DNA from: Pelomonas aquatica
GTDB lineage: Bacteria > Pseudomonadota > Gammaproteobacteria > Burkholderiales > Burkholderiaceae_C
Length of the DNA: 64,000 bases
Direction of reading: 5' to 3'
NCBI RefSeq assembly: GCF_026712205.1
Contig: NZ_JAPPUW010000001.1
Span: 1-64,000, forward strand
This document shows, one piece after another, positions 7,170 to 33,685 of this stretch. The position numbers and the translations under genes are program-made. Under the pieces are notes generated by a model. It was not told the DNA's origin. It was given only the letters and a program-made list of their open reading frames with translations, and made no database searches. The stretch's first letter is position 1. Each line of letters opens with the position of its first letter.

Positions 7170-7204
7170 AAAAAAACCGGCGGCCACTGTTGCGGGACGC
7201 CGGC
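7170..7204 (-). terminator. Intrinsic terminator (attenuator) in the metX leader
   Basis: Read on the minus strand, a 6-bp GC stem (CCGGCG / CGCCGG) with a 15-base loop is followed at once by seven U residues. It lies between the SAM-II-like aptamer and the metX ribosome binding site. This is the layout expected of a riboswitch expression platform that ends transcription before metX when SAM is bound. Confidence 0.7.
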
Positions 7205-7211
7205 TGTGCTC

Positions 7212-7267
7212 GGAGTCCTGTTTAGCGGCATTTGTAGAGCGCCCGCAATCCGGAACAAATCGGCGCT
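7212..7267 (-). promoter_or_regulatory. SAM-II-type riboswitch upstream of metX
   Basis: The minus-strand leader carries the SAM-II (metA-motif) pattern in order: P1 5' strand AGCGCC, then CGAUUU, then AUUGC, then P1 3' strand GGCGCU, a 4-base spacer, AAAUG, two bases, GCUAAA, one base, AGG. Spacing from P1 through the 3' consensus matches the well-known environmental metX SAM-II RNA as I remember it, with the P1 bases changed on both sides so that pairing is kept. UCC in loop 1 can pair with GGA at the 3' end for the pseudoknot. It sits 60 bases before metX and is followed by an intrinsic terminator. A TAAACT sequence just upstream of P1 (within 7279-7287) could be the -10 element. Confidence 0.85.
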
Positions 7268-7339
7268 GTGAGGCGACAGTTTAGCGGAGGCCGCCGCGCA
7301 GCGGCTGAACGATGATGGCCGGGCTCGAGGAGGCTGCCG

Positions 7340-8281
7340 ATGAGAGTTGCGCTGTTGCTGATCCCCGCCCTGCTGGCCGGCTGCGGCGACAGGCCGCCCG
7401 ACGGCTGGACCGGCTATGCCGAGGCCGAGCTGGTCTATGTCGCGCCGCCCGTGGCCGGCCGGCTGAGCGACCTGGCCGTGCGCTCCGGCGAGGCCGTGGC
7501 CGCCGGCCAGGCGCTGTTCGCGCTGGACGCGACGCCCGAGCTCGCGGCCGATGCCGAGGCGCAGGCCCGCGCGCAGAGCGCCCAGGCCCAGGCACTGGAC
7601 GCCGACAAGGGCCGGCGCGCGCCCGAGCTGGCCGTCACGCAGGCGCAGCTGGACCAGGCCCGCGCCGCCGAACGCCTGGCCGCCGGCGACCTCGCCCGGC
7701 AGCAGCAGCTGCTGGCCCAGGGCTTCGTCGCCCGCGCCCGCGTGGACGACGCGGCGACGACGCTCGCGCAGGCCCGCGCCCGCGTCGCCGAGCTGGAGGC
7801 GGCGCTGCAGGTGGCCCGTCTGCCGGCCCGCGATGACGCACGCAGCGCCGCGCGTGCGCTGGCCGAGGCCGCGCAGAACAGCCGCGCGCAGACGGCCTGG
7901 CGCGTCGCGCAGAAGCGCCAGAGCGCGCCGGTGGCGGCCCGCGTGCAGGACGTCTTCATGCGCCCCGGCGAATGGGTGGCGGCCGGCCAGCCGGTGCTGG
8001 CCCTGCTGCCGCCGGCCAACCGCAAGGCGCGCTTCTATGTGCCGCAGTCGGCCGTCGGCGGCCTCAGGCTGGACGCGCGCGTGAGCCTGCATTGCGATGG
8101 CTGCGGCGCGGCCATTCCGGCACGCATCAGCTTCATCGCCAGCGGCCCCGAGTACACGCCGCCCGTCATCTACTCCAACCAGCAGCGCGACAAGCTGGTC
8201 TTCCTCGTCGAGGCGCGGCCGCTGAAGGTCGAGGACGCGGAGCGGTTGCATCCGGGCCAGCCACTGGACGTGACGCGATGA
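7340..8281 (+). CDS. HlyD-family membrane-fusion lipoprotein
   Basis: A 313-residue periplasmic adaptor (YbhG/HlyD type) of an ABC exporter. It starts with a lipoprotein signal (LLAGC, Cys15), then a biotinyl-lipoyl half ([20 protein letters not shown]), a long alanine-rich coiled-coil hairpin (about residues 70-190), the second lipoyl half ([18 protein letters not shown]) and a beta-barrel tail. Its stop overlaps the ATPase gene by 4 bases. It should link the inner-membrane transporter to an outer-membrane channel, which is not encoded nearby. Substrate unknown. Confidence 0.88.
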
Positions 8282-29311: not shown

Positions 29312-30055
29312 ATGACCTATTGCGTCGCGATGCGCCTGCGCTCGGGCCTGCTGTTCGCCTCCGACACCCGCACCAATGCGGGCGTCGACCACATCGCGAG
29401 CTTTCGCAAGATGTACCAGTTCCAGATCCCGCACCAGCGCGAGATCGTCGTCCTGGCGGCCGGCAACCTGGCGACGACGCAGTCCGTGCTGTCGCTGCTG
29501 AATGCGCGCCTGAGCGGCGACGGCGAGCATCTGCTCAACGTGCCCAGCCTCTACGACGGCGCCGTGCTGCTGGGCCGCACGCTGAAGGAGGTCGTCGCGC
29601 GCGACGCCGGCGGCGGCATGCAGGGCCAGGGCGTGGACTTCGGCGCCAACTTCCTGCTCGGCGGCCAGATCAAGGGCGAGGGCCCGCGGCTCTTCCACGT
29701 CTACCCGCAGGGCAATTTCATCGAGGCCACCGAGGACACGCCCTATTTCCAGATCGGCGAGAGCAAGTACGGCAAGCCCATCATCGACCGCGTCATCAGC
29801 TACGAGACGACGCCGCTGGACGAGGCGGCCAAGTGCACGCTGGTGAGCTTCGACTCGACCATCCGCTCCAACCTGTCGGTGGGCCTGCCCATCGACATGC
29901 TGATGCTGCGCGCCAACCGGTTCGAGCAGGCCATGAAGCCGCCGCACCGCATCGGCCGCGACGACCCCTATTTCCTGTCGCTGCGCGACGGCTGGAGCAA
30001 GGGGCTGCGCGAGGTCTTCGACGAGCTGCCCAACGAACCCTGGTTCGACAGCTGA
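29312..30055 (+). CDS. Anbu-type proteasome-related peptidase
   Basis: A 247-residue Ntn-hydrolase related to HslV and 20S beta subunits. It starts MTYCVAMRLRSGLLFASDTRTNAGVD: the Thr at residue 2 becomes the N-terminal nucleophile after Met removal, and SDTRTNAG and KMYQF are Anbu hallmarks. The glycine-rich AAGNLATTQSVL block is present. Anbu genes usually sit with a transglutaminase-like gene, an alpha-E (DUF403) gene and an ATP-grasp gene; none is here. The start is set at 29312 because the extra nine upstream residues would bury the nucleophile. Confidence 0.88.
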   Translation: MTYCVAMRLRSGLLFASDTRTNAGVDHIASFRKMYQFQIPHQREIVVLAAGNLATTQSVLSLLNARLSGDGEHLLNVPSLYDGAVLLGRTLKEVVARDAGGGMQGQGVDFGANFLLGGQIKGEGPRLFHVYPQGNFIEATEDTPYFQIGESKYGKPIIDRVISYETTPLDEAAKCTLVSFDSTIRSNLSVGLPIDMLMLRANRFEQAMKPPHRIGRDDPYFLSLRDGWSKGLREVFDELPNEPWFDS

Positions 30056-30057
30056 CC

Positions 30058-30822
30058 ATGCCCTGGCGCCACCTCCTGACCGCCTGCGCCCTCGGGGCGG
30101 CGCTGTCCTGCGCGGCCCAGGACATCACGGTGCTGCGCACGGTGGCCCAGTCCGGCAACCTGCCCAAGTTCAACGTCGGCGACGCCCACAGGCCGGGCTT
30201 CTGCGTGGAGATGCTGCACGCCATCGAGGCCACCGACAGCGCGCTGCGCTTCGAGGGCCTGGAGCAGGCCCTGCCCCTCAAGCGCATCGCGGGCCTGCTG
30301 GAAAGCGGGCGGGTCGATGTCTTCTGCGGCCTGGCGCGCACGCCGGCCCGCGAGGCGAAGATCAGCTTCCTGCCGCACATCGTCTATGTCACCCGGCACA
30401 AGCTGGCCGTGCGGGCCGACGACCCCTTGCGCATCCACAAGCTGGAAGACCTGCGCCGGCTGTCGCCCGACGAGCCGGTCATGGTCAACCGCAGCAGTGC
30501 CTATGAGCAGATCCTGCTGGATGTCGGCCGCATCCCGCTCGACGCCAGCCTGTCCGACCCGATCACCAGCCTTCGCAAGCTGGTCAACCACCGCGGCCGG
30601 GCCTACTACTTCAGCGACATGGAGCTGAACTACTACATCCAGCGCGACCAGCTCCAGGACAAGGTCAGGCTGCTGCCCCAGGTCTTCCACGAGGACCGCC
30701 CGCTGTTCGCCTACCGCCAGGACCTGCCGCAAGCCGCCGTCGAGCGGCTGCGCGGCGCCCTCGACAGGCTGCAGGCGGACGGCAGCCTCCACCGCATCGC
30801 CGCCCGCTACGGCGCGCGCTGA
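30058..30822 (+). CDS. Periplasmic solute-binding-like protein (SBP_bac_3 type)
   Basis: A 254-residue protein with a signal peptide (cleavage after CAA, about residue 20) and a family 3 solute-binding fold: FCVEMLHAIEA, GRVDVFCGLARTPAREAKISFLPHIVY, and a C-terminal LRGALDRLQADGSLHRIAARYG. No transporter genes are nearby, so it may be a stand-alone sensor or orphan binding protein of the amino-acid class. It begins 2 bases after the Anbu stop, so the two are probably one transcript. Confidence 0.8.
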   Translation: MPWRHLLTACALGAALSCAAQDITVLRTVAQSGNLPKFNVGDAHRPGFCVEMLHAIEATDSALRFEGLEQALPLKRIAGLLESGRVDVFCGLARTPAREAKISFLPHIVYVTRHKLAVRADDPLRIHKLEDLRRLSPDEPVMVNRSSAYEQILLDVGRIPLDASLSDPITSLRKLVNHRGRAYYFSDMELNYYIQRDQLQDKVRLLPQVFHEDRPLFAYRQDLPQAAVERLRGALDRLQADGSLHRIAARYGAR

Positions 30823-30843
30823 GCCGGCCGGCTCTACGGGTTT

Positions 30844-30928
30844 GCAATCAAAGCGATAACAAGGCGCGAAGCCGCAGACAGTGCTCTGGCACGGCAAGGC
30901 GAAGCAACGCGGTTAGCGCTTTGATTGC
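30844..30928 (+). repeat. Structured repeat, copy 3 (variable stems, conserved internal loop)
   Basis: Outer stem: 30844-30855 (GCAATCAAAGCG) pairs perfectly with 30917-30928, plus 4 more pairs after one mismatch. Then the conserved strand CAAGGCGCGA, an inner hairpin (GCCG-CAGA / TCTG-GCA-CGGC, 30871-30895), and the conserved strand GCGAAGCAACGCGG. The same two conserved strands occur in the pair at 32585-32786 with entirely different stem sequences. Located between convergent genes. Confidence 0.8.
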
Positions 30929-30937
30929 GAAGCCGTA

Positions 30938-31810
30938 TCACACCGGCCCGAGCACCCGCATCGAGTAGTCCACCGCGCGCACGTCCTTGGTCAGCCGGCC
31001 GACGGAGATGCGGTCCACGCCGGTCGCGGCGATCCAGCGCAGCTGCTCCAGCGCGACGCCGCCCGACACCTCCAGCAATGCCCGAGCCGAATACGCGGCG
31101 TTCACCGCCACGGCCTCGCGCATCATGGCCTCGCTGAAGTTGTCCAGCAGCACGCTGACCGCGCCGGCGGCGAGCGCCTCGTGCAGTTGGGCGATGGTCT
31201 CGACCTCGATCTGGATATCCACGCCCGCGTTCAGCGCCCGGGCCGCGCGCAGCGCCTGGCCCACGCCGCCGGCCGCGGCGATGTGGTTTTCCTTGATGAG
31301 GATGCCGTCATAGAGCGCCAGCCGCTGGTTCTGCCCGCCGCCCACGCGCACCGCGTACTTCTGCGCCAGGCGCAGGCCGGGGAGGGTCTTGCGCGTGTCG
31401 AGGATGGCGCAGCCTTTCGGGTTCGGGCTCGCGCCGGCCACTGCGTCGACGTGGGCGCGCGTGAGCGTCGCCGTGCCGGACAGCAGCTGCAGGAAGTTCA
31501 GCGCCGGCCGCTCGGCGCTCAGCAGCGCGCGGCCGTCGGCCTCGATGCGGCAGACGATGCCGTCGGCCGCCATCGCGGCGCCTTCGTCGTAGAGCCAGTC
31601 GATGCGGCTCGTCGCGTCCAGCGCGGCGAACACGCCGTCGAACCAGTCGCGCCCGCACAGCACGGCCTGCTCGCGCACCCGCACCTGGGCGGCCACGCGC
31701 CGGCCCGCGGGCACGAGCTGTGCGGTCCAGTCGCAGCCGCCGATGTCCTCGGCCAGGGCCTCGCGGATGTTGCGGGCGCGGGCCTGCGCCAGGCTTTCCT
31801 GCGCGACCAT
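30938..31810 (-). CDS. nadC: Nicotinate-nucleotide pyrophosphorylase (carboxylating)
   Basis: A 290-residue quinolinate phosphoribosyltransferase making nicotinate mononucleotide in NAD synthesis. Family blocks: ALAEDIGGCDWTA, LNFLQLLSGTATLTRAHVDAV, ILDTRKTLPGLRLAQKYAVRVGG, GILIKENHI, IEVETIAQLHEAL, LLDNFS and LEVSGGV. The start codon overlaps the stop of the FAH-family gene by one base (TGATG), so the two are co-translated, though no shared pathway is obvious. Confidence 0.95.
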   Translation of the reverse strand: MVAQESLAQARARNIREALAEDIGGCDWTAQLVPAGRRVAAQVRVREQAVLCGRDWFDGVFAALDATSRIDWLYDEGAAMAADGIVCRIEADGRALLSAERPALNFLQLLSGTATLTRAHVDAVAGASPNPKGCAILDTRKTLPGLRLAQKYAVRVGGGQNQRLALYDGILIKENHIAAAGGVGQALRAARALNAGVDIQIEVETIAQLHEALAAGAVSVLLDNFSEAMMREAVAVNAAYSARALLEVSGGVALEQLRWIAATGVDRISVGRLTKDVRAVDYSMRVLGPV

Positions 31811-32508
31811 CACTCGGGCTCCCCCACGGTCAGCGTGATCTCGCCCAGGCCCTCGATGCGGCCCGTCACCACGTCGCCCGGCACGACGGCGCCCACGCCG
31901 GCCGGCGTGCCCGTGTAGATCAGGTCGCCCGGGTGCAGGCGGTAGAGGTGGGACAGGTTGGACACGATCTCGGCCTGGTGCCAGATCATGTCGGCCAGGT
32001 CGCCGTGCTGCTTCTGCACGCCGTTCACGGCCAGCGTGATCGCGCCCTTGTCGAGGCGGCCGATGTCGGACACGCGCACGATCTCGCCGAGGATGGCCGA
32101 CTGGTCGAAGCCCTTGGCCGTGTCCCAGGGCCGGCCGGCGGCCTTGGCCTCGGCCTGCAGGTCGCGGCGCGTCATGTCCAGGCCCGCGGCATAGCCCCAG
32201 ATCGCGGCCACCGCGGCCTCGGGCGTGAGCTTGAACACCGGTGCGCCGATGGCCAGCACCAGCTCCATCTCGTAGTGGTAGTTGCGGGTCTCGGTCGGGT
32301 AGGGCACGGTGCTGCCCGAGGGCGTCATCGCGGTCGCCGGTTTCGTGAAGTAAAACGGCGGCTCGCGCGTCGGGTCTGAGCCCATCTCGCGGGCATGATC
32401 GGCATAGTTGCGGCCGACGCAGAAGATGCGGCGGACCGCGTAGCGGGCGCCCGTGCCGCGCACGGCGGCGCTGGGAATCTCGGCCGGAGGAAAGACGAAA
32501 TTGCTCAT
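31810..32508 (-). CDS. FAH-family acylpyruvate hydrolase
   Basis: A 232-residue fumarylacetoacetate-hydrolase-fold protein (fumarylpyruvate/acylpyruvate hydrolase class). Metal-binding motifs: FCVGRNYADHAREMG, then YHYEMELVLAIG (the ExE metal site), YAAGLDMTRRDLQ, KGFDQSAILG and DLIYTGTPAGVG. Start taken at 32508 (MSNFVFPPAE), the family N-terminus; the open frame further upstream runs through repeats. Substrate could be an acylpyruvate, oxaloacetate (decarboxylation) or fumarylpyruvate. Its upstream region is occupied by the inverted-repeat complex at 32554-32817. Confidence 0.9.
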   Translation of the reverse strand: MSNFVFPPAEIPSAAVRGTGARYAVRRIFCVGRNYADHAREMGSDPTREPPFYFTKPATAMTPSGSTVPYPTETRNYHYEMELVLAIGAPVFKLTPEAAVAAIWGYAAGLDMTRRDLQAEAKAAGRPWDTAKGFDQSAILGEIVRVSDIGRLDKGAITLAVNGVQKQHGDLADMIWHQAEIVSNLSHLYRLHPGDLIYTGTPAGVGAVVPGDVVTGRIEGLGEITLTVGEPE

Positions 32509-32553
32509 GGCATGGCATCGACGATGGGGGATCAGCGTGCAGCATACTGGGCG

Positions 32554-32817
32554 AGGAGTCTGTGTGACTGAGCGTGGCGCCCGCGCCGGGGCGATTTGCG
32601 GGGCCAGGCAAGGCGCCGGCGAGGCGTGGGTCGGGACCCACAACGAGCCGGCAACGCCGCATGGCCCCGCAAATCGCCCCGGCCCTTCGGGTTGGGCCTG
32701 GCTGGGGCGCATGCCGCGTTGCTCGTCGTTGCGGGCACGAGCCCGCGGCCTCCTCGCGCCTTGCCTGCGCCCCAGCCAGGCCCAACGCGGGCACCACGCT
32801 CAGTCACACAGACTCCT
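32554..32817. repeat. Nested inverted-repeat complex with two structured-repeat copies
   Basis: An outer 32-bp inverted repeat (32554-32585 and 32786-32817, one mismatch) encloses two palindromic elements. Copy 1 (32585-32683, read +) has a perfect 22-bp outer stem and inner hairpin GTGGGT / ACCCAC. Copy 2 (32691-32786, read -) has a perfect 21-bp outer stem of unrelated sequence and inner hairpin GCGGGC / GCCCGC. Both share the conserved strands CAAGGCGC and GCAACGCNGCATG between the stems. The region lies between the divergent FAH and rlpA genes and runs into the rlpA frame. Confidence 0.85.
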
Positions 32818-33685
32818 GCTGCTGCTCACGCTGGCGCTCCTGACCGGCTGCGCGACACGCCCGGTCGCGCCCACCGCTCCCGCCGGCCGTGACGGCGGGC
32901 CGGCCAGCCCGCCGGCCGAGCTGCACAAGGTGCCCGACGCCGAGCCGCGCGTCGAGCCCATCCGCAACGGCGGCCCGAACAAGCCCTACGAGGTGGCCGG
33001 CGAGCGCTACGAGCCCATCACGACGGACGCGCCCTATGCCGAGCGCGGCCTGGCCTCCTGGTACGGCAACAAGTTCCACGGCCGGCCGACGTCCAGCGGC
33101 GAGGTCTACAACATGTATGCGATGACGGCGGCGCATGCGACGCTGCCCATCCCGAGCTATGCGCGCGTGCGCAACCCGGCCAACGGCCGCGAGGTCATCG
33201 TCCGCATCAACGACCGCGGCCCCTTCCACAAGGGCCGCATCATCGACCTGAGCTACACGGCCGCGCTCAAGCTCGGCCTGCTGCACGGCGTGGCGCCGGT
33301 GGAGGTCAGGCGCCTCACCTATGCCGAGATCCGCGCCGGCGCCTGGCAGAAGCCCGCCAACGAGCCACCGCCCGTCTTCGTGCCCGATGCGCCGCCCGGC
33401 TCGCCGCAGCGCGAGACGACGGCCACCGCGACCGCCGCCACGACGGGATCGGGCTACTGGCTGCAGTTCGGCGCCTTCGGCAGGCTCGACGCCGCCGAGG
33501 CGCTGCGCGAGCGCGTCGCCCAGGCCGACCTCGGCCTGCTGCCGCTGCTGACCATCGTGCGCGAGGCCGGCCTGAACCGGCTGCGCGCCGGCCCCTTCCC
33601 GAACGCCGACGAGGCGCGTGCCCAGGCCGACAAGTTGCGCACCGAGAACGGGCTGGAGTCCAGCCTCGTCGAGCCGCGCCGGTGA
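32711..33685 (+). CDS. rlpA: RlpA-type septal lipoprotein (DPBB plus SPOR)
   Basis: RlpA family: a hydrophobic lipoprotein signal (LLLLLTLALLTGC), a double-psi beta-barrel (GLASWYGNKFHGRPTSSGEVYNMYAMTAAH region to INDRGPFHKGRIIDLS) and a C-terminal SPOR domain (YWLQFGAFGRLDAAEAL), which binds denuded glycan at the septum. The start is uncertain. The only ATG near enough, at 32711, lies inside the repeat complex and would put about 35 odd residues before the signal peptide; no ATG or GTG lies closer. In Pseudomonas aeruginosa RlpA the GE-x-x-D motif Asp is catalytic; here that position reads Asn (GEVYN). Confidence 0.85.
   Translation: MPRCSSLRARARGLLAPCLRPSQAQRGHHAQSHRLLLLLTLALLTGCATRPVAPTAPAGRDGGPASPPAELHKVPDAEPRVEPIRNGGPNKPYEVAGERYEPITTDAPYAERGLASWYGNKFHGRPTSSGEVYNMYAMTAAHATLPIPSYARVRNPANGREVIVRINDRGPFHKGRIIDLSYTAALKLGLLHGVAPVEVRRLTYAEIRAGAWQKPANEPPPVFVPDAPPGSPQRETTATATAATTGSGYWLQFGAFGRLDAAEALRERVAQADLGLLPLLTIVREAGLNRLRAGPFPNADEARAQADKLRTENGLESSLVEPRR

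Follow-up and report, generated by a model that had tools for sequence, protein, structure and literature searches.

Repeats of Pelomonas aquatica belong to a very numerous family of small, probably mobile DNA elements with the Correia core

Three structured repeats of Pelomonas aquatica belong to a very numerous family of small, probably mobile DNA elements, which have their core in common with the Correia elements of Neisseria. They lie in the window, the stretch of 64,000 nucleotides of contig NZ_JAPPUW010000001.1 analysed here, where a sequence-only reading had singled them out as three copies with two short strands in common, CAAGGCGC and GCAACGC. Our analysis confirms their number, order and orientation as well as the presence of both strands in each copy, and a scan for the two strands next to a complementary flank retrieved these three places as the sole matches in the window. 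The same reading knew of no described element with this pattern, a statement that no longer holds, as copy 1 bears the core of the Neisseria Correia element.

The copies in the window and in the genome

The limits of the copies differ from those originally drawn. Copy 1, previously placed at 30844-30928, extends from 30835 to 30937 (plus strand) as a single-arm element of a family termed F1; as determined by border alignment of 11 in-genome copies, it reads TACGGG...CCGTA and is flanked by CTC on the left and TCA on the right. Its core strands CAAGGCGC (30860-30867, plus) and GCAACGC (30904-30910, plus) are identified by sequence and by the genome pattern search, and the stop codon of a nadC-like gene (quinolinate phosphoribosyltransferase by Pfam; 30938-31813, minus strand) adjoins the element. 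Copies 2 and 3, formerly two separate units at 32585-32683 and 32691-32786, are contained in one two-arm composite of 264 bp at about 32554-32817, as delimited by its arms, its terminal repeats and an open frame with a net gain of 88 codons compared with the nearest relative. Terminal inverted repeats of 32 nt at 32554-32585 and 32786-32817 enclose arm A (copy 2; 32587-32681, plus strand; core strands at 32609-32616 and 32651-32657), the mini-hairpin CCCTTCGGG (32683-32691, read from the sequence) and arm B (copy 3; 32692-32785, minus strand; core inside 32716-32763). The pattern CCCnnnGGG recurs between the arms of other composites.

A covariance model, R1, was built from 41 sequences (40 non-Neisseria and one Correia copy) that included all three window copies. 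It scores copy 1 at 83.1 bits (30838-30934, plus strand), copy 3 at 72.0 bits and copy 2 at 65.1 bits, and the next match in the window at 21.6 bits; this weak match (8001-8066, plus strand; E 0.004) is probably due to chance, and a further one reaches 13.1 bits. Folding of each copy, on both strands, beats 200 dinucleotide shuffles (z -4.9 to -8.2). In copies 2 and 3, complementary stretches without interruption, 22 and 21 nt long, reproduce the outer stems described before, and so do the inner hairpins of 6 bp in these two copies. For copy 1, a claimed outer stem of 16 pairs corresponds to an uninterrupted run of 12 nt in the scan and to 21 of 24 paired positions in the common register, and its inner hairpin has four contiguous base pairs in place of eight. 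A known RNA family was rejected: no Rfam family matched the copies at the gathering threshold, beneath which six weak matches occur (best E 0.052). The sole gathering-level match in the window is a SAM_alpha riboswitch at 7201-7276 (minus strand, 41.3 bits). A gene for a proteasome-type peptidase (29315-30055, plus strand), which adjoins a solute-binding-protein gene, is likewise present in the window.

The genome holds far more than three copies, and the refuting condition set by the earlier reading, a genome-wide search that returns just these three, does not apply. R1 returned 95 matches, the weakest with an E-value of about 1e-6, from 150 scored of 14269 first-look candidates; E-values of this model are rough, given a shortened calibration. 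The spaced core CAAGGCGC-N(20-50)-GCAACGC occurs 63 times in the 5.12-Mb genome versus once for a reversed control pattern, and two of the 63 (L026 and L027) resemble chance matches in coding sequence. The elements are numerous and scattered over the genome. They have paired ends next to TNA or CTAG-like flanks, and close relatives lack them at the orthologous sites. Sharp family borders become visible upon alignment of in-genome copies. Family F1 (11 copies aligned) has the layout TNA | TACGGG...CCGTA | TNA at a length of about 103-105 nt, and its 3-nt flanks are the same on both sides in 12 of 17 distinct elements (TCA in seven, TGA in four, TTA in one); window copy 1, with CTC and TCA, is among the other five. 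According to rough frame calls, F1 sits mostly between convergent frames, and in 7 of 11 copies the right-hand minus-strand frame stops at the flanking TCA; orientation relative to transcription gives no information. Two further families have the layouts CTAG | AAACGGCAGTTG (about 260 bp) and TNA | GAACCTGTTCACGG (about 258 bp). Many elements have two arms in inverted orientation with a CCCnnnGGG mini-hairpin between them and terminal repeats of about 32 bp, and their overall length is nearly always about 265 bp; among fetched loci, a script recorded 49 rows of two-arm elements (one locus twice), with totals of 256-290 bp and terminal repeats of 25-40 nt. In seven two-arm loci CTAG is found at both outer ends; since it equals its reverse complement, it suits a palindromic target but could equally be an extended repeat. 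Like MITEs, the elements are short, have terminal inverted repeats and lack a reading frame of their own. At two places in genome G410 (C55:5118-5192 and C78:33636-33702), facing terminal repeats are separated by no more than about 67-75 bp, a spacing that would fit loss of the interior. Among plasmid records, the window composite has two matches and three other composites have one, none and none; one of these three has one match among phage records. The matches of copy 1 in the plasmid collection are two gonococcal chromosomes of about 2.17 Mb filed as plasmids (NZ_CP119140.1 and NZ_CP119142.1).

Window positions 30650-33050 were compared with 30 relatives. Eighteen same-genus genomes align to or near the left border of the composite, and none of the 18 fetched loci has a core match; in G655, the nearest relative, the aligned flanks are separated by about ten bases at the composite site. 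Copy 1 is also absent from the orthologous locus of G655, and as the DNA to the left of the F1 site aligns properly in this relative alone, the clean F1 comparison rests on it. An rlpA-like lipoprotein gene (32507-33685, plus strand; start codon inferred from relatives; DPBB_1 and SPOR domains by Pfam) carries the composite in its probable signal peptide without a shift of frame; a script recovered the frame and N-terminus of this gene in 10 of 11 relatives. The open frame comprises 413 codons compared with 325 in the nearest relative, so that the gene gains 88 codons, or 264 nt, from the composite with its frame unbroken. A 260-bp element together with 4 further bp would account for this net length; the flanks differ (CGAG versus CTGC), and therefore no target duplication is demonstrated at the window composite. 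The repeats had been taken for a selected RNA or DNA structure. The pairing data described below support this part of the proposal, whereas a plain structured RNA is at odds with dispersal, defined ends, target-like flanks and empty orthologous sites.

Pairing in the shared scaffold

The elements share one scaffold. An outer stem in fixed register leads to an asymmetric internal loop formed by CAAGGC and AACGCnn; further inward follow an inner stem, which also covaries, a small second loop and the hairpin at the apex. In the outer stem, base k on the left side, numbered from the core outward, pairs with base k+2 on the right. In 11 family representatives, 84% of the cells pair at this offset, compared with 40% between families and 32-42% at other offsets; because the instances were pre-selected by a pairing cut-off at offsets 1-3, the latter two values are the fair controls. 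Ten of the 11 representatives obey the rule. The exception, L067, is probably a chance match that passed the cut-off and was dropped before alignment A2. Fifteen of 106 instances under the cut-off had been removed from the family-representative set: nine were matches in coding sequence or by chance, two were second matches that overlapped another, and four looked like real elements with an insertion (L037), a deletion (L042) or a bulge (L084 and L089).

Alignment A2 comprises 41 elements with distinct stems, which had also passed the pairing cut-off beforehand. Its outer stem is 85.6% paired versus 44.3% in shuffled versions, cells with double changes number 402 versus 144, and covariation amounts to 0.976 versus 0.224 upon shuffling and at most 0.238 upon sliding. 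Two of five measures do not discriminate, namely the number of double-change pairs (22 versus 21.8) and of pair types (86 versus 79.8). In alignment A1 (19 rows, F1 and one Correia element), 15 of 25 outer pairs show double changes, with a covariation of 0.314 compared with 0.118 for shuffled and at most 0.091 for slid versions. What had been noticed in three copies, pairing maintained while nearly all stem bases are replaced and the letters of the internal loop stay fixed, is true over 41 distinct stems.

Since the hairpin is poorly aligned in A2, a MAFFT alignment, the inner stem was counted from anchors in the 92 of 96 cores that contain CAAGGCGC. Positions 1-6 after this strand are paired in 71, 67, 79, 55, 65 and 41 of the 92 cores, each exceeding all 500 shuffles, which positions 7 and 8 do not. 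Positions 1 and 2 change jointly, both being Watson-Crick pairs in 59 cores, neither in 21 and only one in 12, and 14 of the 92 carry a tandem G.A/A.G there. Such a mismatch pair is stable in folded single strands. On the core strand of 96 non-redundant elements, G.T mismatches outnumber A.C by 113 to 32, a ratio of 1.14 to 1 being expected from composition; to be counted, an instance needed at least 14 of 20 positions that were either paired or G.T/A.C. We give the excess less weight, as it is clustered (56 of the 113 fall at positions 6, 7 and 17), as the model used to fetch many of the loci favours G.U pairs, and as the in-genome pattern set of 27 non-redundant sequences yields 18 to 8 (sign test, p 0.18). 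T.G wobbles at stem positions 6, 7 and 17, outward from the core, recur across many families. The tandem G.A/A.G and, more weakly, the G.T excess point to folding of one particular strand.

Relation to Correia elements and occurrence in other genomes

A search with copy 1 retrieved two Neisseria gonorrhoeae records with at least 40 pieces each, the best place being 86% identical over the core and starting and ending with the Correia terminal pattern, as printed in PMC2911385. In one gonococcal chromosome, R1 matches 104 places at E-values up to 0.01, mostly about 98 or 148 nt in length. All eight places that were read are Correia elements by their ends: seven have the published start on both sides and one a one-letter variant. 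According to PMC2649163 and PMC5039591, a gonococcal genome has 123-131 Correia elements, which fall into two size classes, 104-108 bp and 153-157 bp, and the elements are unique to Neisseria. Neisseria Correia elements are shown to have the same core and register as the elements described here.

Correia elements (CREE, NEMIS) and the present elements are alike in their core letters, outer-stem register, dispersal in high copy number and paired ends, and the short Correia form of 104-108 bp is close to F1 with its 103-105 nt or so. The composites of 256-290 bp, in contrast, fit neither published Correia size class, and two-arm composites are not described for Correia elements in the literature covered. 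The terminal repeats are unrelated, TACGGGTTTGC or GAGTCTGTG... here versus TATAGTGGATTAA in Correia elements, and the Correia terminal repeat TATAG[CT]GGATTAA... is not present at the ends read of the families in this genome. The flanks, TNA for F1 and CTAG-like for composites, also differ from those of Correia elements. Copy 1 therefore matches a short Correia element in core, register and approximate length, but has other ends. In the open-licence literature we found no paper on Correia-like elements outside Neisseria, and among the listed open-licence papers that matched the core letters, none was on such elements by title.

R1 (E-values up to 0.001) matched 96 of 200 genomes and 66 of 109 genera in a sample of the order, including nine genomes that had supplied training sequences, 92 of 274 genomes and 79 of 222 genera in a sample of the class, and 56 of 200 genomes and 34 of 110 genera in a sample of the phylum. 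Thirty-six of the 56 genomes in the phylum sample are labelled as other classes, 28 of them in a single family. Copy numbers are lower bounds, since 15 or 20 candidates were scored per genome. Exact core strings with the stem in register are held by 83 of 114 loci fetched with R1; the other 31 all score at least 53 bits and therefore differ in core letters or register, one of them, L137, pairing at a different offset. The composite layout was seen by eye in loci of the class and phylum samples, and the exact F1 core is present in 10 stretches of named Hydrogenophaga, Paracidovorax and Variovorax genomes. The Correia-type core is not confined to Neisseria.

Candidate movers and competing explanations

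The flanks of the elements resemble the target sites of IS5-type insertion sequences (ISs). A script-based search for an IS5-type partner at three PF01609 loci, covering about 3.2-3.5 kb each, found none. Nor did the genome contain an autonomous element with F1 ends: apart from the known copies, the 27 matches with up to two mismatches were one pair spaced by about 100 bp (C34:32104-32206) and four weak ones that stand alone. For L110-type ends in genomes G395 and G410, inverted pairs were found just about 67-385 bp apart and no autonomous element was detected; many of the ends in G395 coincide with contig ends, so that a longer element may exist there. Two Y1 (HUH-type) transposase loci lack core-related ends, L071 having AAAATGGGGTCGGAG-type ends and L072 nothing of the kind. 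In L071 the transposase gene lies between the AAAATGGGGTCGGAG-type inverted repeats and resembles the tyrosine transposases flanked by terminal inverted repeats in PMC3733652.

The elements were compared with known systems. REP sequences and REPINs are also palindromic, dispersed and often arranged in inverted pairs, but they measure 20-40 bp and are tagged by GTAG/CGTC, as described in PMC3733652, whereas our elements span about 100-270 bp and keep their conserved letters in internal loops and not at one end. A REP/RAYT assignment was rejected, as no such tag is present at the ends read and the RAYT-like locus L071 has other ends. MITEs of IS5 type such as MITEPsy1, for which CTAG or YTAA is reported as target (PMC3189936), share short size, lack of an own frame and terminal repeats; a partner IS was not found here within limited searches, and the printed ends of MITEPsy1 and MITEPsy2 are unlike those of our elements.

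On the basis of these results, we consider it likely that the elements are non-autonomous and MITE-like and belong to a Correia-type superfamily with exchangeable ends and a conserved single-strand fold with its internal loops. Their ends and flanks suggest that DDE transposases of ISs would move the ends in trans, so that the ends could change freely while the interior is kept. Once single-stranded, the core-bearing strand would fold, and read-through RNA is the likeliest setting for this. Published work on Correia elements suggests, by analogy, that the folded core may be handled by a conserved host factor such as RNase III or a different stem-reading protein; the element would then be a tolerated module of RNA processing or stability, mostly at gene ends. 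We favour an RNA role because Correia transcripts are reported to be handled by RNase III (PMC10969869 and PMC2649163) and because the single-strand fold is seemingly kept. In the same papers, Neisseria Correia elements are described as carrying promoters and, in the long form, an IHF site. Against this explanation count the lack of a transposase with matching ends in our limited searches, the RNase III cleavage published for the terminal repeats and not for the core of Correia elements (PMC10969869), the five of 17 F1 elements, copy 1 included, without identical flanks, the unmatched flanks of the window composite, the two covariation measures that fail to discriminate and the pairing pre-selection of the A2 sequences. 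More tentatively, and with somewhat less than even confidence, we suggest that what is inherited in this superfamily, across the class and into parts of the phylum, is the fold and not the terminal sequence; the fold would move between sets of IS ends and have its loops read by a widely conserved host factor, with Correia elements as one branch.

Part of the covariation could arise by other routes. In copy 1 the outer stem, and in the composite the outermost one, coincide with terminal inverted repeats, in which a transposase that reads both ends could create covariation without any fold. Extended to all elements, this would mean that no fold is selected, that the transposase matches the terminal repeats, that internal arms are old ends trapped in younger elements and that hairpin-templated repair homogenises the arms. 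The non-significant G.T excess of the unbiased in-genome set would agree with such a scenario, as would the identity of the F1 outer stem and the composite outermost stem with terminal repeats. The internal arms, copies 2 and 3 in the window, are not explained by a transposase reading the ends; such arms keep register and spacing over many families, the inner stem covaries, and the tandem G.A/A.G replaces two pairs jointly, and repair would homogenise these as well. We regard this scenario as improbable. Unlikely, in our estimate, is a role of the fold in single-stranded DNA, exposed at replication or extruded as a cruciform, with the internal loops recognised by an enzyme specific for structure, either a transposase shared by the elements or a nuclease of the host. 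The stems would then need just to pair, and the varied ends would be incidental. The fixed register and near-constant scaffold size over many unrelated ends suit this mechanism, tandem G.A and G.T are as compatible with folded DNA as with RNA, and the partner IS was not found; however, the duplicated target-like flanks of F1 in 12 of 17 elements suggest double-strand cutting, and neither Y1 locus of the genome showed core-bearing ends.

The elements might also be known already under another name, as the Beta-proteobacterial repeat element (BRE) of Bordetella and Comamonadaceae. According to PMC3110155, BREs are numerous, about 90 bp long and partly found in the same host family, with one copy region transcribed (bprJ). 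In our searches, F1 cores occur in Hydrogenophaga, Paracidovorax and Variovorax. BRE units, however, form tandem arrays with no or few bases between them, according to the same paper, whereas the elements read here are not tandem. From this comparison of descriptions, we judge identity with BREs to be quite unlikely.

For decades, research on Correia elements has treated them as a speciality of Neisseria. If the core is shared by a large share of genomes in the order, the class and parts of the phylum, comparative tests of both the mover and the role of the core would become feasible, with many independent sets of ends at hand and in harmless environmental bacteria. A fold that is kept across freely changing stems would moreover give an unusually clear handle for identifying its reader protein.
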